From Campylobacteraceae bacterium (GTDB lineage: Bacteria > Campylobacterota > Campylobacteria > Campylobacterales > Sulfurovaceae), in the NCBI GenBank assembly GCA_027038295.1, contig JALVXD010000043.1, forward strand, positions 12,740 to 61,928: a DNA stretch of 49,189 nt, in the 5' to 3' direction. The position numbers and the translations under genes are program-made. Shown in pieces: positions 2,073 to 38,901 of the stretch. The stretch's first letter is position 1, and each line of letters begins with the position of its first letter. The notes under the pieces are model-generated. The model saw only the letters and a program-made list of their open reading frames with translations, was not told the DNA's origin and did not search any database.

Positions 2073-3125
2073 CTACGCCGTCTTCTCGTCAATAAACTCT
2101 TGAACAAAAGCCTTAATATCGCTATAGACAAAAGAGTCTTTATACTCTTTTATTTTCCCTCCACTTGCGTTGGGGTGTCCTCCACCGTTTCCTATCTCTT
2201 CTGCCATTTTAGAAACATCGAGTTTGTCGTGACCTCTTAGTGAGAAGTTTCCTCTCCAGTTGATGTCCATGTAGAAGTCGTAGTCAGGGTTTTCTAATAA
2301 GAATGTGTTTCCAAGTATGGATGTGTTCCCTAAGTTATAGCCTAGCAGACCTTTATGCCCACGGTAATCAATGGTAAGTCGTTGTTTATCGTCACTTAGA
2401 AGCTTGGTCATGTAGATGGCTGCTAAGTTGTCTTTGGTGTTGTTTTCATTTTGTTTAAAGAATGTTTTCTTTATTTGGTGTAGGTCGTCATCTAAAGCTA
2501 TGTGTGCGTTTTCTTTTTCTACATAGTTTTTCATTGCTTCTATAAGTGAAAGTTTTAAAGCTCTGTCTTGGGCAGGAAATAGGGTTCTGTTAATTTCTCT
2601 TGCTCCTGAAATCATTCCTAAACCCACTTTTCCAAATTCGAATAGTTCATCATCTGAAACCCAAATATCTATCGCATTGATGGCTTTTACTATTTGTGCA
2701 TAGTTGTTCTCTTTGTCAAAACTATGATGTTGTTGTAGCCATTCGTAGGTGATGAGTGTGGCACATTTTGTGGTGTCTAGTTTGTACCATGCGTATTGTT
2801 CGGCTGTCTTTTCCCCTGAACCATGATGGTCAAGAAGTTGTATTTTGGCTCCAACCTCCATAGCTTCTGCTTCTAGCCATTTAGCCTCTTTTGGAGTGAG
2901 GTTTAAGTCTGTTACTAAGATAATATGTTCTACATCATCTTTTCCTATAAATTTTTCACGTTTTATAGCTGTGATTATCTCTTCAAGACGTGCTTTAACT
3001 TCTGGTCCGTAATTGGCATTATAAGATTCTATTTTTGAGTTTTTACTATTGTTAAAGCAGTTTTGGCTTAGGTATTGACAGCCGTAGCCGTCAAGATCAA
3101 TGTGAGAAAGATGGTAGATGTTCAT
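2073..3125 (-). CDS. DHH/DHHA1-family phosphoesterase
   Basis: Putative manganese-dependent phosphoesterase of the RecJ/NrnA superfamily. The N-terminal DHH domain shows HIDLDGYG (residues 8-15), a VTDLN motif (71-75) and the hallmark LDHHGSGE (98-105). The C-terminal DHHA1 domain ends with GGGHPNASGG (about 314-323). At 350 residues it matches NrnA-like nucleases and oligoribonucleotide or cyclic-dinucleotide-product hydrolases rather than full RecJ. The substrate cannot be told from sequence. Its start lies inside the 3' end of the Rrf2 regulator gene (29-nt overlap in another frame) with GAGGAT upstream, so the two form an operon. Confidence 0.85.
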   Translation of the reverse strand: MNIYHLSHIDLDGYGCQYLSQNCFNNSKNSKIESYNANYGPEVKARLEEIITAIKREKFIGKDDVEHIILVTDLNLTPKEAKWLEAEAMEVGAKIQLLDHHGSGEKTAEQYAWYKLDTTKCATLITYEWLQQHHSFDKENNYAQIVKAINAIDIWVSDDELFEFGKVGLGMISGAREINRTLFPAQDRALKLSLIEAMKNYVEKENAHIALDDDLHQIKKTFFKQNENNTKDNLAAIYMTKLLSDDKQRLTIDYRGHKGLLGYNLGNTSILGNTFLLENPDYDFYMDINWRGNFSLRGHDKLDVSKMAEEIGNGGGHPNASGGKIKEYKDSFVYSDIKAFVQEFIDEKTA

Positions 3126-3525
3126 TATTAAATATATCCTCTAAAGTAAGTTCTTTTAGGAATGTATCTATTTTATTTTGAAAGGTTGCTAAAAATGGAG
3201 AGATATTGCAACTACCTATAGCACCATGAGGGCAAGTGTCAGTATATTGGCTACAATCAAAAACAGCAGGAGTTTTCCCCTCAGCAGCGACAATAATGTC
3301 AGCTATACTTATTTCATTGGCTTTTTTAGCCATAATAAAACCACCATGAGCACCTTTTTTAGATTCTAAAATATTTGACTTTGCAAGTCCTTGTAAAATT
3401 TTGGCTAAAAAGCTTTTAGGAATAGAGAGTTCACGTGCGAGTTGTTCAGCACCTTGAGGTTTTTCGGAGTTTCTTATAATGTCTAATGCTAGTAGGGCAT
3501 ATTCACTGGCTCGGGTTAACAACAT
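3097..3525 (-). CDS. Rrf2-family transcriptional regulator
   Basis: A 142-residue winged-helix regulator. The N-terminus LLTRASEYALLALDII, the recognition region IPKSFLAKILQGLAKSNIL and the wing KKGAHGGFIMAKKA are typical of Rrf2. Three cysteines (C91, C98, C106) sit where IscR and NsrR hold an iron-sulfur cluster, so a redox, nitric oxide or iron-sulfur sensing role is plausible. It is the first gene of a two-gene operon with the overlapping DHH phosphoesterase. An 8-bp palindrome CTAATTAG at 3561-3568 lies just upstream and could be an autoregulatory half-site, but it is short. It is divergent from rpsO. Confidence 0.9.
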   Translation of the reverse strand: MLLTRASEYALLALDIIRNSEKPQGAEQLARELSIPKSFLAKILQGLAKSNILESKKGAHGGFIMAKKANEISIADIIVAAEGKTPAVFDCSQYTDTCPHGAIGSCNISPFLATFQNKIDTFLKELTLEDIFNNEHLPSFSH

Positions 3526-3628
3526 AGTATTATGATATCCTTTATAAATTGTATTAAATTCTAATTAGGACTATTTTACTCTAAATTATATTAATTATAG
3601 ATTTTATCTTGATTTAAACAAATAGTGC

Positions 3629-22597: not shown

Positions 22598-24778
22598 TTA
22601 TATCCCATCAATAATACCATTCAAAGTAGCCGAAGGACGCATAGCCTTCTCAGCCAACTCATCGTTAGGGTGGTAGTACCCACCAATATCTTGAGCTTTA
22701 CCCTCAACAGAAAGTAACTCTTCAATAATCTTAGCTTCGTTATCTTTAAGAGCTTGTGCAACAGGTGCAAACTTCTCTGCTAGTTCAGCGTTTGAACCGT
22801 TTGCAAGAGCTTCTGCCCAGTATTGAGCTACGAAGAAGTGAGATGCTTTGTTGTCAGGCTCTCCTGCTTTTCTGCTTGGAGCTTTGTTATTGTCAAGGTA
22901 ACCATCGTTTGCAAGATCAAGTGCTTCTGTAAGAGCTTGAAGTTTTTCATCTGAGTGTTTTCTTCCGATAAATCTTAATGACTCAGCCAATGCCAAGAAC
23001 TCACCAAGTGAATCCCATCTTAAGTGACCCTCTTTTAAAAATTGGTCAACGTGTTTTGGAGCAGAACCACCAGCACCAGTTTCGTAAAGACCACCACCTG
23101 CAAGTAATGGAACAATAGATAGCATTTTAGCAGATGTTCCAAGCTCTAGGATTGGGTACATATCTGTAAGATAATCTCTAAGTACGTTACCAGTTACGGC
23201 GATAGTGTTTTTACCTTCTCTTACTCTTGCATTGGTAAATCTAGTTGCTGCTGCTACGTCCATAATTTGAATGTCTAAACCATCCGTGTCGTGGTCAGCT
23301 AAGTAAGTGTTTACTTTTTTAATCATCTGGGCATCGTGAGCTCTGTTGCTGTCTAACCAGAAGATTGTAGGAACTTTTTCAATACTTGCTCTCTCAACTG
23401 CTAGTCTTACCCAGTCTTTGATAGGAATATCTTTAGCTCTACTCATTCTCCAAATATCACCAGCTTCAACGTCAAATGACATTAACTCTGTTCCATCTTC
23501 AGCAGTTACAGTTACTTTTCCAGCTTCTGCCATCTCGAAAGTTGTTGGGTGAGAACCGTACTCTTCTGCTTTTTGAGCCATAAGACCCACGTTTGCTACA
23601 GAACCCATAGTAGATACATCATATTGACCATTAGCAACACAATCTTTTACCATCTCTTCGTAGAAAAGACCATAAGAGGCATCAGGGATAACAGCAACAC
23701 ACTCTTTAGCATCGCCATTTCTGTTCCACTGTTTACCACCTTCACGAACAACAACAGGCATAGAAGCATCGATAATTACATCGTTAGATGCGTTAAAGTT
23801 TGTTTGACCTTTGTCTGAGTCTACCATGGCAATCTCTGGAGCATCACTCTCTACAACAGCTTGGAATGCTGATTTGATTTCTGCTTCTAACGCATGACCT
23901 GCAATTTTTAGTTCGAGGTCACTCATACCTTGGTTAGGGTTAACGTGAAGCTCTGCAAATGTATCTGCATATTTTGTAAATACATCTTGGAAGAATACGG
24001 TAAACGCATGACCAAACATAATTGGGTCAGATACTTTCATCATGGTTGCTTTTAGGTGAAGTGACCATAAAACATCGTTTGCTTTTGCATCTTCGATTGT
24101 TTTTGCAATAAATGTTTTAAGTTTAGCCACAGACATATATGTACCATCTAAAACTTCGCCATCAAGTGCATCAATTGTTTTTAACTCAGTCCCATTTAAA
24201 GCAATAGTTACTTTTTGAGCGTTGTCAATAACTACAGATTTTTCATTGGCATAAAAGTCACCATCTCCATTCATGTGAGCAACATACGCTTTTGAGTTTT
24301 CAGAAAAAGCTCTTAGTCTATGTGGGTTATTTTGTGCAAATCTTTTTACAGCTACGGCTGCTCTTCTGTCTGAGTTACCTTCTCTTAGAACTGGGTTAAC
24401 GGCACTTCCAAGACAAGTACTATACTTAGCTTGAATAGCCTCTTCGTCTGCATTAGCAGGATTTTCAGGATAATCAGGAATCTCAAAACCTTGACCTTGA
24501 AGCTCTGCAATACACTCTTTAAGTTGACCAACAGAAGCTGAAATATTTGGAAGCTTAATGATGTTTCCATCTGCTTCTTGTACAACATTTCCAAGCTCTG
24601 CAAGATTATTTTCTGCTTTTCCCATTGCTGAAAGAACTCTTCCTGCCAATGAAATATCAGAAGTTACAACTGAAACTCCTGCTGCTTTTGTAAACGCGTT
24701 TACGATTGGTAACAACGAATAAGTAGCTAGTGCTGGTGCTTCATCAATTTTTGACCAGATAATTTTTGGTAATGACAT
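22598..24778 (-). CDS. icd: Isocitrate dehydrogenase, monomeric NADP-dependent type
   Basis: Interconverts isocitrate and 2-oxoglutarate plus CO2; in autotrophic Campylobacterota it works in the reductive direction in the reverse citric acid cycle. I start at ATG 24778 (MSLPKIIWSKIDEAPALATYSLLP) because AAGGA precedes it and family members begin this way; a 10-residue longer reading is less likely. The 726 residues are full length for the monomeric type (family about 740). Segments such as VPTIFWLDSNRAHDAQMIKKV and GGSAPKHVDQFLKEGHLRWDSLGEFLAL are characteristic. It is monocistronic. Confidence 0.97.
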   Translation of the reverse strand: MSLPKIIWSKIDEAPALATYSLLPIVNAFTKAAGVSVVTSDISLAGRVLSAMGKAENNLAELGNVVQEADGNIIKLPNISASVGQLKECIAELQGQGFEIPDYPENPANADEEAIQAKYSTCLGSAVNPVLREGNSDRRAAVAVKRFAQNNPHRLRAFSENSKAYVAHMNGDGDFYANEKSVVIDNAQKVTIALNGTELKTIDALDGEVLDGTYMSVAKLKTFIAKTIEDAKANDVLWSLHLKATMMKVSDPIMFGHAFTVFFQDVFTKYADTFAELHVNPNQGMSDLELKIAGHALEAEIKSAFQAVVESDAPEIAMVDSDKGQTNFNASNDVIIDASMPVVVREGGKQWNRNGDAKECVAVIPDASYGLFYEEMVKDCVANGQYDVSTMGSVANVGLMAQKAEEYGSHPTTFEMAEAGKVTVTAEDGTELMSFDVEAGDIWRMSRAKDIPIKDWVRLAVERASIEKVPTIFWLDSNRAHDAQMIKKVNTYLADHDTDGLDIQIMDVAAATRFTNARVREGKNTIAVTGNVLRDYLTDMYPILELGTSAKMLSIVPLLAGGGLYETGAGGSAPKHVDQFLKEGHLRWDSLGEFLALAESLRFIGRKHSDEKLQALTEALDLANDGYLDNNKAPSRKAGEPDNKASHFFVAQYWAEALANGSNAELAEKFAPVAQALKDNEAKIIEELLSVEGKAQDIGGYYHPNDELAEKAMRPSATLNGIIDGI

Positions 24779-25011
24779 TTTTGTTCCTTGTGTGTAGTTT
24801 AATAGCATGAGTTTAGCAATATTTTTTAAATAGGAGAATTAAAGTCGGGTTTGAGAAAAATTATCTCTATTGGTTGTTTCTTTCTTACACAAAGAGGTAG
24901 ATTATGGTTAAAAAAGTGTTACCTATATATAGAGAAAAATAGGGAGATATTTGACTCATTTATATAGATATAACTTTCTACACTATCTTTTTAATAGTAT
25001 TGGGTTTAGGA

Positions 25012-36184: not shown

Positions 36185-37309
36185 TTATTTCCTTATCATC
36201 GTTAATTTTGAGTCCGAATTATACATAAAATAAAAACGAAAAGCAAGTAAATTCTCTAAAATACCAAAAAGAAGTGCAAAAATAATAAATGAAGTTCCTC
36301 CGTGGCTAAACATTGGCAGTGGGAGACCTACAACAGGAGCTAGTCCGATGGTCATTAAAATGTTGACAGTCATATAGATAAAGAAGAGAAAAGCAATGCC
36401 TGAGGAGACAACCCGTACATAATAGTCTTTTGGATTTTTAATGGCAATATACATAAGGTGCAGTATAAGGGCGATATAGAGACCAATCGTTAATATCATA
36501 CCTTTAAAACCAAGACGTTCGCCTAAATAAGCAAAAATAAAATCGGTTGATGATACAGGTAAGAATTTTAATTGTGTTTGGGTTGCTTCTTCTTGGTCTT
36601 GTCCATCCATGCCTCCTGAACCAATAGCAATCATAGATTGCTGAACATGATAACTGGGTTCACCCATAAAGTTGGCAATACGTTGTTTTTGGTAAGGTTT
36701 CAGACCATGAGTGTAGAGAATGGGTGCTGTAAGACCTAAAATTAAAATTAATATAACCCAAATACGAGCTTGAATACCTATAGTAAATAGAATACCGTAA
36801 CCTGTAAGAAGTAGTACAAGACCTGTTCCTAAGTCTGGCTCTTTTGCTATAAGTATGAAAGGAGTAAGAATATAAAAAGAGAGCTTGGCAAACATTCCCC
36901 ATGAGTATCCATGTTTAGGAGGAGGATTGCGAGATATAATATACCCAAGCATGAGTATAACAGTGATTTTAATAAACTCTGAGGGTTGAATGGTCATATG
37001 TATAACGGGTATCTCTATCCAACGTTGAGCTCCAAGAATTTTTTTACCAAAAAGTTCAACACTTAGAAGTAGAAGAAGGTTAACCCAATAGGCTAGGGGT
37101 ATAAGCCATTGAAATTTACGCCATGGAATTAAAAAAGCTATAAAAAATGCAACAGCAGAAATACCATAGTAAATCATTTGACTGTCAAAGGAGTGCTCTG
37201 AAATTTCAAATACAAGAAATGATGATAGTATAAATATTGGTATAAGTTGTAGTATAAGTAGAAAATTTATCTGTTGAAGAATACGTCTGTCAAATTGGAA
37301 CCAGTTCAT
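36185..37309 (-). CDS. rodA: Rod shape-determining protein RodA
   Basis: SEDS-family peptidoglycan glycosyltransferase of the elongasome. The 374 residues hold about ten membrane helices; the signature segments HMTIQPSEFIKITVILMLGYII, KEPDLGTGLVLLLTG, LKFLPVSSTDFIFAYLGERLG and PVVGLPLPMFSHGGTSFII are all present. It works with MreB and MreC. A TATAAT at 37335-37330 on the minus strand, just upstream, is its own likely -10. The tRNA-Met gene follows. Confidence 0.95.
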   Translation of the reverse strand: MNWFQFDRRILQQINFLLILQLIPIFILSSFLVFEISEHSFDSQMIYYGISAVAFFIAFLIPWRKFQWLIPLAYWVNLLLLLSVELFGKKILGAQRWIEIPVIHMTIQPSEFIKITVILMLGYIISRNPPPKHGYSWGMFAKLSFYILTPFILIAKEPDLGTGLVLLLTGYGILFTIGIQARIWVILILILGLTAPILYTHGLKPYQKQRIANFMGEPSYHVQQSMIAIGSGGMDGQDQEEATQTQLKFLPVSSTDFIFAYLGERLGFKGMILTIGLYIALILHLMYIAIKNPKDYYVRVVSSGIAFLFFIYMTVNILMTIGLAPVVGLPLPMFSHGGTSFIIFALLFGILENLLAFRFYFMYNSDSKLTMIRK

Positions 37310-37350
37310 TAAGTGTCTTTTTTAATTGTATTATATCGAAGAGAGAATTA

Positions 37351-37463
37351 ATCTTAAGTAGTGATGAGACGAGTTTCAAGTATTTTTAGGGAGGAAATAC
37401 TTAAGGGATTTTCTATCAATTTAAAAGGAGGAATGAATGTAAACTCAATCAACTACTTAAGAT
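37351..37463 (-). ncRNA. Candidate small RNA with nested stems and CU-rich loops
   Basis: In the 227-bp rhlE-rodA gap the minus strand has a TATAAT -10 at 37477-37472, placing the start about two bases before a 12-bp perfect inverted repeat (ATCTTAAGTAGT at 37351-37362, its complement at 37452-37463). Inside it are a second stem (GAGTTT / AAACTC) and a hairpin of AAGTATTT / AAATACTT whose loop on the minus strand is CCTCCCTAA. A further unpaired run, CCTCCTTTT, also resembles an anti-ribosome-site sequence. No strong terminator is seen, so a rodA leader is the alternative. Confidence 0.45.
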
Positions 37464-37536
37464 ATGTTCAAATTATACCTAATTCGGATAAAATTACTCT
37501 TAATTAGATAAAATTTTATATTAATATTTGTTAACA

Positions 37537-38901
37537 TTAAAAATGACGTTTATTTGATGGGCTTTTACGACCTGATTTTTTTCCTTTATCATTAGAAATA
37601 TCAGATATTTTTTTATTTCCCATCATTTTTTCAGCCAACTCTTTAGCTTTTTTAAGTTTTTGAGCCTGTTTTTTATTTTCATTGCTCTCTTTTTGTTTTA
37701 TTTTTTTAGAACTAAGCTGTACATGCTTCTCATAAGTAAAACCTTCTGTCTCTATAGTCTCTAAAGTTTTATTAATAAGTTTTTCTATCTCATTCAGTTG
37801 TTCTACCTCTTTTTGGCAAATAAGTGAAAGTGCCTCACCATTTTGTTTAGCACGACCTGTTCTACCGATTCGGTGAATATAGTCTTCATTTTTAGTAGGA
37901 AGTTCAAAGTTTATAACATGGGGCAAATTAATAATGTCTATTCCTCTAGCAGCAACATCGGTTGCCACTAAAACACGTAATTTTTTATCTTTAAATGCGT
38001 GGAGAGCTTCTACTCTTTGTCCTTGACTTTTGTCACCATGAATGGCTTTTGCATCTATATTCTTTTCATTGAGATGTTCTACTATTTTGTCTGCTTGTAG
38101 CTTTGTATTGGTAAAAACTAAAACTTGGTGCCAGTTATGAGAGCCAATAAGGGTAGAGAGTAGGGGCATTTTCTCCTCTTCGTTAACATAGTTTATGACT
38201 TGCTTTACCTGTTTTGTTGAAAGGTTCTCTCTGTCTACCTCTATAGTGATAGGGTTTTTTAAAAATGATTTTGCCAAACTTTTAATAGTTGAAGGAAAGG
38301 TTGCTGAGAACATAAGTGAGTGTCGTTTTTTTAGTGTTCCATCATCTTGTAGGGTATTGATAGGGAGTTTTGATAGAATAAAACGTATATCTTTTATAAA
38401 TCCCATCTCTAACATTTTGTCTGCTTCATCTAGCACTACCATTTCTACCTCGCAAAGGTCAATGGTTTTGTTTTTCATATGGTCTATGAGTCTTCCTGTT
38501 GTGGCAATGGCAATGTTCGCACCAGAGCGAATCTGGGTGGTTTGTCCTCCTAGTTTTACACCACCATAAAGTGCTACCGATTTATGGCTAAACGCTTTTC
38601 CATACTCTTCTATTTTGGTATGAACTTGTAGAGCCAGTTCTCGTGTGGGTACTAAAACAAGAGCTTTTATTTTGTATCGGTCATCACCTGTTTTTTTTAT
38701 GCTACTCTCTTCTAAGTTTTCTAACATAGGTAAGACAAAAGCAGCTGTCTTTCCTGTGCCTGTTTGAGAGGTGGCGAGGAGGTCTTTACGCTCAAGTAGT
38801 AGAGGTATGGCTTTTGTTTGAATCTCTGTTGGATTGGTATAACCAAGTTCTTTTATAGTATTTAATAGTTTATCTGAAAGTTTTAGCTCTTTAAATGACA
38901 A
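37537..38901 (-). CDS. rhlE: DEAD-box RNA helicase, RhlE type
   Basis: ATP-dependent RNA helicase. The 454 residues contain the Q motif (NPTEIQTKAIPLLL), Walker A (ATSQTGTGKTAAF), DEAD box (VVLDEADKMLEMGF), SAT (MFSATFP), ARGIDI and HRIGRTGR motifs in order. The C-terminal tail is Lys-rich (KKAKELAEKMMGNKK), as in RhlE-like proteins that act on ribosome assembly and cold stress. It is monocistronic and divergent from the M3 oligopeptidase gene. Confidence 0.93.
   Translation of the reverse strand: MSFKELKLSDKLLNTIKELGYTNPTEIQTKAIPLLLERKDLLATSQTGTGKTAAFVLPMLENLEESSIKKTGDDRYKIKALVLVPTRELALQVHTKIEEYGKAFSHKSVALYGGVKLGGQTTQIRSGANIAIATTGRLIDHMKNKTIDLCEVEMVVLDEADKMLEMGFIKDIRFILSKLPINTLQDDGTLKKRHSLMFSATFPSTIKSLAKSFLKNPITIEVDRENLSTKQVKQVINYVNEEEKMPLLSTLIGSHNWHQVLVFTNTKLQADKIVEHLNEKNIDAKAIHGDKSQGQRVEALHAFKDKKLRVLVATDVAARGIDIINLPHVINFELPTKNEDYIHRIGRTGRAKQNGEALSLICQKEVEQLNEIEKLINKTLETIETEGFTYEKHVQLSSKKIKQKESNENKKQAQKLKKAKELAEKMMGNKKISDISNDKGKKSGRKSPSNKRHF

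Follow-up and report, generated by a model that had tools for sequence, protein, structure and literature searches.

The gap between rodA and a DEAD-box RNA helicase gene in a 49,189-nt stretch of DNA from a Campylobacteraceae bacterium of the family Sulfurovaceae (hereafter the window) holds a set of nested inverted repeats, which raises the question of whether an RNA is encoded there, on which strand, and what it does. A preliminary description, made from the letters alone, had read these repeats as a minus-strand small RNA (sRNA) with loops directed against ribosome sites. Its repeats, its TATAAT and its loops were each found in the sequence where it had placed them, and the locus is laid out as follows.

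36185-37309, minus strand: rodA, the downstream neighbour in the window's genus only
37335-37330, minus strand: conserved TATAAT, the -10 element of rodA, between the RNA and the rodA start codon
37349-37465, minus strand: small RNA gene; transcription is predicted to begin at about 37465 (+1), and pairing runs as far as 37351
37351-37362, minus strand: 3' arm of the closing stem P1, ACUACUUAAGAU, from inverted repeat and covariation
37378-37402, minus strand: P3 hairpin, with loop CCUCCCUAA at 37394-37386
37413-37437, minus strand: exposed conserved segment UUCAUUCCUCCUUUUAAAUUGAUAG, with core UUCCUCCUUUU at 37433-37423
37452-37463, minus strand: 5' arm of P1, AUCUUAAGUAGU, from inverted repeat and covariation
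37472-37477, minus strand: TATAAT, the -10 element of the sRNA promoter; nearly all homologues have TATAAT or TATACT equally far from P1
37480-37506, no strand assigned: 27-bp dyad, TAATTAAGAGTAATTTTATCCGAATTA on the minus strand, putative operator of an Rrf2-family regulator, at about -41 to -15
37537-38901, minus strand: DEAD-box RNA helicase gene, the upstream neighbour in the window's genus

The candidate RNA is about 115 nt long and runs from 37465 down to about 37349. The two P1 arms form 12 bp with 100% complementarity and P3 is an 8-bp hairpin (arms 37378-37385 and 37395-37402, with 9 nt between them), which confirms the two longer repeats first described. The TATAAT and the start two bases ahead of the stem also agree in position, and both CU-rich segments are there, CCUCCCUAA in the P3 loop and CCUCCUUUU unpaired at 37431-37423; the core UUCCUCCUUUU is complementary to ribosome sites reading AAAAGGAGGAA. 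The third repeat, an inner 6-bp GAGUUU/AAACUC stem, is present in the window but is not a feature of the family, since in most relatives either the closing stem runs on (reading UGAUGAG/CUCAUCA in many genus sequences) or a hairpin forms around UUCCUCCUUUU. The interval 37349-37465 folds to -24.4 kcal/mol on the minus strand (z -5.0) and to -27.8 kcal/mol on the plus strand (z -3.9), with none of 200 dinucleotide shuffles as good in either case. A clear intrinsic terminator was not seen at the 3' side of the RNA, so that read-through into rodA is possible.

Comparison with relatives revealed strong covariation in P1. The alignment of the window's genus contains 18 cells changed on both sides of the stem against 6.8 ± 1.8 after shuffling, and that of Sulfurovum 31 against 9.0 ± 2.2, counts that 0 of 500 shuffles reached in either genus; slid controls were far lower, down to chance pairing. 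Over both alignments together, P1 has 46 G-U cells and 8 A-C cells. An A-C cell is the G-U of the opposite strand, which indicates that the minus strand is the RNA and that a conserved structure lies on the transcribed strand. In the genus alignment the closing stem AUCUUAAG...CUUAAGAU is accompanied by two-sided changes beyond it, UUCCUCCUUUUAAAUU is nearly invariant, and the second hairpin retains its stem despite changes of sequence. The string UUCCUCCUUUU...AAAUU is invariant in 23 genus sequences and UUCUUCCUCCUUUU is near-invariant in 24 Sulfurovum sequences, so that a conserved single-stranded segment complementary to ribosome sites is found in both genera. The P3 hairpin is conserved with a variable stem, and its C-rich loop occurs in most, not all, genus members. 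In three of them (L005, L006 and L009) this loop has become UUAGCC with UUCCUCCUUUU retained, which shows that the family can do without the P3 loop. The Sulfurovum copies carry CUUAGG/CCUAAG in place of CUUAAG, and their fold has one hairpin that encloses AUUCUUCCUCCUUUU and another with CUACC.

Conservation of the stems in relatives was the check proposed in the preliminary description; the closing stem is kept with compensatory changes, and the reading as a minus-strand small RNA with an exposed anti-Shine-Dalgarno segment is borne out by P1 covariation, G-U asymmetry and the (near-)invariance of UUCCUCCUUUU and the -10 element across genera. Of its two anti-ribosome-site loops, the UUCCUCCUUUU segment stood, whereas the second is less conserved (UUAGCC-like in three genus members, CUACC in Sulfurovum). 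Judged from these alignments, the existence and the strand of a real, structured minus-strand RNA appear close to certain. That the plus strand is instead the functional one, with GGGAGG and AGGAGG loops that titrate CsrA as a sponge or serve a short ORF as ribosome sites, has hardly any probability: this strand folds well too, with GGA motifs in its loops and a 48-codon ORF at 37361, but the G-U asymmetry of P1 can be explained by the minus strand alone, which also has the conserved promoter; CsrA was found in 0 of 9 genus genomes by a search that was positive in other genera of the order, which also sets aside a CsrB/C-type sponge, and the ATG after AAAGGAGGAA is not conserved, the group-2 sequences reading GGAGGAAGAAAA.

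Whether the RNA belongs to rodA was examined through its neighbourhood. Of the pattern-scan loci, the 20 from the window's genus all have rodA next to the RNA, and none of the 21 from Sulfurovum does; RNA and promoter do not differ between the two. The same RNA and promoter beside different neighbours point to an independent gene, not a rodA leader, and this gene has its own promoter with a conserved -10 and operator in the two genera. The earlier placement upstream of rodA therefore holds for the window's genus and fails for Sulfurovum, and rodA itself is probably not the point of the sRNA. A 5' leader or cis-regulatory element (riboswitch or attenuator) of rodA would account for the position of the element, directly upstream and in the same orientation at all genus loci examined, with no obvious terminator in between. 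It is largely refuted by the differing neighbourhoods, identical RNA and promoter lying away from rodA in all 21 Sulfurovum loci; moreover a conserved -10 belonging to rodA itself intervenes between the RNA and the rodA start codon, and the conserved segment is an anti-Shine-Dalgarno sequence, not a rodA-specific element. We consider a rodA leader very improbable. The best -35-like hexamer for the rodA -10 element, TTAAGA at 37352-37357, lies inside the 3' arm of P1, so the sRNA and the rodA promoter overlap in the window's genus.

In a DNA search of 60 related genomes, about two thirds of those in the genus had the element, again between rodA and the helicase gene. A covariance model built on the genus found one copy each in 25 of 34 genus genomes, and in 12 of the 13 near-complete ones; over a sample of the phylum, the only other genus with confident matches was one from the same family. 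A weak match outside that family but inside the order (G083/L064, E 0.04) is without P1 and was rejected as chance. With a model built on the Sulfurovum set and a cut-off of E<=0.05, the RNA was detected in 91 of 175 family genomes; at least four Sulfurovaceae genera (g1, g4, g78 and g79) are well supported, usually with one copy per genome. An exact three-part pattern gave 42 matches in 84,980 species genomes. Apart from one record named only 'bacterium', which is a genus member (G025), every match carried a Sulfurovum, Campylobacter(ot)a-type or Epsilonproteobacteria bin label, and this identified the other genus of the phylum sample as Sulfurovum. Rfam gave no family match for the RNA, tRNA being its only match in the window at gathering score, and the best sub-threshold matches were chance snoRNAs. 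RsaE/RoxS and the other Rfam families were thus rejected, as was 6S RNA, which measures about 180 nt and forms a long helix with a central bubble, a size and anatomy unlike those of this RNA. The open-licence literature yielded no description of this RNA, nor of an Rrf2 regulon in Sulfurovum, and we regard it as a real, new and family-restricted sRNA, previously undescribed.

Directly upstream of the -10 element lies a block, TTAAGA(G/C)TAATTTTATC(T/C)-ATTTAG, that is conserved as strongly as the RNA and that resembles the -35/-16 pattern of Campylobacter sigma-70 promoters. Scanning the complete Sulfurovum genome G264 revealed this block to be a rare dyad, TAATTAGGA-N9-TCCTAATTA, and its rarity in the genome and the genes that it precedes fit an operator better than a canonical -35 element. 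Scored with a symmetric weight matrix whose maximum on the reversed genome was 20.4, about two dozen (~24) sites exceeded this value, all intergenic, and the sRNA site ranked fourth (33.1). The downstream genes, named from reading their translations and not from a family search, comprise those for a nifS-type cysteine desulfurase, a NifU-like scaffold and an Mrp carrier; for tpx, a peroxiredoxin, a superoxide reductase and a flavodiiron protein; and for formate dehydrogenase, thiC, a multihaem cytochrome, ccoN and a CRP/FNR-type regulator. One further dyad lies 41 bp from an Rrf2-family regulator gene. The window's own genome, which belongs to the other genus, has six distinct sites, at the sRNA, tpx, mrp, rrf2, 2Fe-2S ferredoxin-like and cytochrome c genes, and the site at 37480-37506 scores highest in the window (29.9; the reversed window gives 12.6). 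The dyad precedes 37 of 41 sRNA copies with a score above 20, and a good site is missing at a few genus members (L068, L078, L086 and L089). The promoter site is accordingly common to the sRNA, to iron-sulfur (Fe-S) genes and to the regulator's own gene, and on this sequence evidence the sRNA very probably belongs to an Rrf2-type regulon. A weaker copy of the dyad at 24827-24853 (score 16.7, against the same 12.6) precedes by 18 nt a gene like that for monomeric isocitrate dehydrogenase (22598-24808, minus strand), a possible further member.

The window itself encodes a candidate for the regulator.

3097-3525, minus strand: Rrf2-family (IscR/SUF-regulator-like) factor, candidate regulator of the sRNA, with cysteines in ...FDCSQYTDTCPHGAIGSC...
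3562-3588, no strand assigned: the same dyad upstream of the rrf2 gene (score 27.5), putative autoregulation site

This protein matches Pfam Rrf2 (E 3.4e-28) and exceeds the cut-off of NCBIfam rrf2_super; it is nearest to SUF/IscR-type regulators while scoring below their equivalog cut-offs, and it carries three closely spaced cysteines. An orthologue is present in 55 of 60 family genomes and in all 11 genera sampled. The dyad recurs at the corresponding position in most of 30 orthologous rrf2 loci, so the gene is apparently autoregulated. From the shared sites, this apparent autoregulation and the gene content we infer that the Rrf2 protein binds the dyad; IscR provides the precedent for an autoregulated Rrf2-type regulator with such a gene content. 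A site covering about -41 to -15 suggests that the protein would repress the sRNA promoter, with activation possible.

What the RNA might act on was approached through its conserved segment. Hfq was detected in 0 of 13 genomes, with positive controls detected, and an Hfq-dependent sRNA of the RyhB type was rejected on this ground. For target ranking, the ribosome regions of 2109 crude gene calls in G264 were ordered by their pairing with the conserved segment. By a crude signal-peptide rule, 17 of the top 40 predicted targets are exported, against 8.4 ± 2.4 for shuffled segments, 9.6 ± 2.7 when CCUCC was retained in the shuffles, and 9 for the 16S tail; exported genes may simply have stronger ribosome sites, which would explain the enrichment. 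The top 100 include nirS-like, napH-like and other cytochrome genes, and haem/Fe-S proteins number 8 there against 3.8 expected, a marginal excess (P 0.03, uncorrected). Ribosome sites with at least 10 nt of complementarity exist in the window's own genome for ftsZ and a PsrA/PhsA-type molybdoenzyme, both among its nine other AAAGGAGGAA sites, and in two genera for a lipase-like lipoprotein; the molybdoenzyme site has additional pairing upstream. The lipoprotein matches extend over 11-14 nt and reach -25, -22 and -24 kcal/mol in some genomes but are lost in many orthologues, which excludes it as a universally conserved target, and comparison of orthologues across genera found the individual predicted targets not well conserved. 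Genome-wide, AAAGGAGGAA, the exact anti-Shine-Dalgarno complement, is not more frequent than its reversal. Based on these predicted targets and the invariant segment, the sRNA probably represses translation by pairing with Shine-Dalgarno sequences.

The poor conservation of specific targets across genera beside an invariant segment, together with the similarity of that segment to the 16S tail GGAUCACCUCCUUUC, would also suit a real minus-strand sRNA of the same regulon in which the partner of UUCCUCCUUUU is not individual mRNAs but a protein or the ribosome, by mimicry of the 16S 3' end. The conserved flanks past CCUCCUUU (5' UUC, and UUAAAUUGA in the genus) are however unlike the 16S tail, and the enrichment of exported proteins arises from the sRNA segment and not from the 16S tail. 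This alternative is unlikely, and pairing with individual mRNAs is the reading that we follow below.

RepG of Helicobacter pylori is a Campylobacterota sRNA with a CU-rich loop, as is the RNA described here. Within the phylum, the best tested precedent for the mode of pairing is CJnc230 of Campylobacter jejuni, an RNA of about 98 nt that represses translation by pairing with ribosome sites (PMC11187230). It shares with the window's sRNA a single-stranded anti-Shine-Dalgarno stretch between stems, but is RpoN-dependent, lies downstream of flgE, has flagellar targets and a short CCUU motif, and is without an Fe-S-type operator. IsrR of Staphylococcus aureus is Hfq-independent, pairs through several single-stranded C-rich regions with Shine-Dalgarno/AUG regions, and acts under the iron regulator Fur on iron-containing respiratory (nitrate) enzymes, targets that have been tested (PMC9410917). 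Like IsrR, the window's sRNA would combine independence of Hfq, C-rich segments against ribosome sites and control by metal or redox state; in contrast to IsrR, it would answer to an Rrf2-type regulator, its targets are predicted, and sequence, structure and phylum are unrelated. RoxS/RsaE of Bacillus and Staphylococcus carry conserved C-rich regions against ribosome sites and are regulated by ResDE/SrrAB (PMC4409812). As is proposed for the window's sRNA, their transcription is linked to a regulator that responds to redox state or NO, with a conserved site upstream of the gene, but these are Firmicutes RNAs under ResDE/SrrAB, without the terminal P1 stem AUCUUAAG/CUUAAGAU and without sequence relation to the window's sRNA. 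FsrA is a further analogue: a metal/redox regulator controls it, and its C-rich segments are directed at ribosome sites. In Escherichia coli, the RyhB/IscR circuit likewise pairs an sRNA with an Rrf2-family Fe-S regulator in Fe-S homeostasis, RyhB being Hfq-dependent and Fur-repressed (PMC5040110), whereas the sRNA gene of the window would itself bear the Rrf2-type operator. The best model is an analogue of IsrR, FsrA and RoxS that by sequence falls in none of these families.

Taken as a whole, the locus probably encodes a trans-acting, Rrf2-controlled and Hfq-independent sRNA with its own promoter that blocks translation at Shine-Dalgarno sequences. An IscR-like regulator would bind the dyad over the -35 and spacer region and, with an intact cluster, would most likely repress the sRNA. 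Loss of the cluster through iron shortage, oxidants or NO would release it, and UUCCUCCUUUU would then, with no need of Hfq, block translation of chosen mRNAs by pairing with their Shine-Dalgarno regions. With exported and respiratory proteins favoured among the predicted targets, the chosen proteins would be shut down under iron-sulfur stress. This iron- or redox-sparing logic is plausible, short of probable. More tentatively still, an Hfq-less phylum may independently have evolved an sRNA of the 'iron-sparing' type that depends on an Fe-S-sensing Rrf2 protein, not on Fur, and that uses one invariant anti-Shine-Dalgarno loop, common to several genera, to silence envelope and respiratory proteins selectively.

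The Campylobacterota sRNAs described so far are mostly restricted to a species or genus, and C. jejuni and H. pylori were reported to share only 6S-type stable RNAs (PMC3847290); the present sRNA occurs in at least four genera of the Sulfurovaceae, which are common inhabitants of sulfidic vents and sediments. The set of dyads offers a first sketch of an IscR-like (Rrf2) regulon in Sulfurovum. The invariant segment, the defined operator and the names of a candidate regulator and of co-regulated genes make the post-transcriptional Fe-S/redox response of Hfq-less bacteria directly testable.
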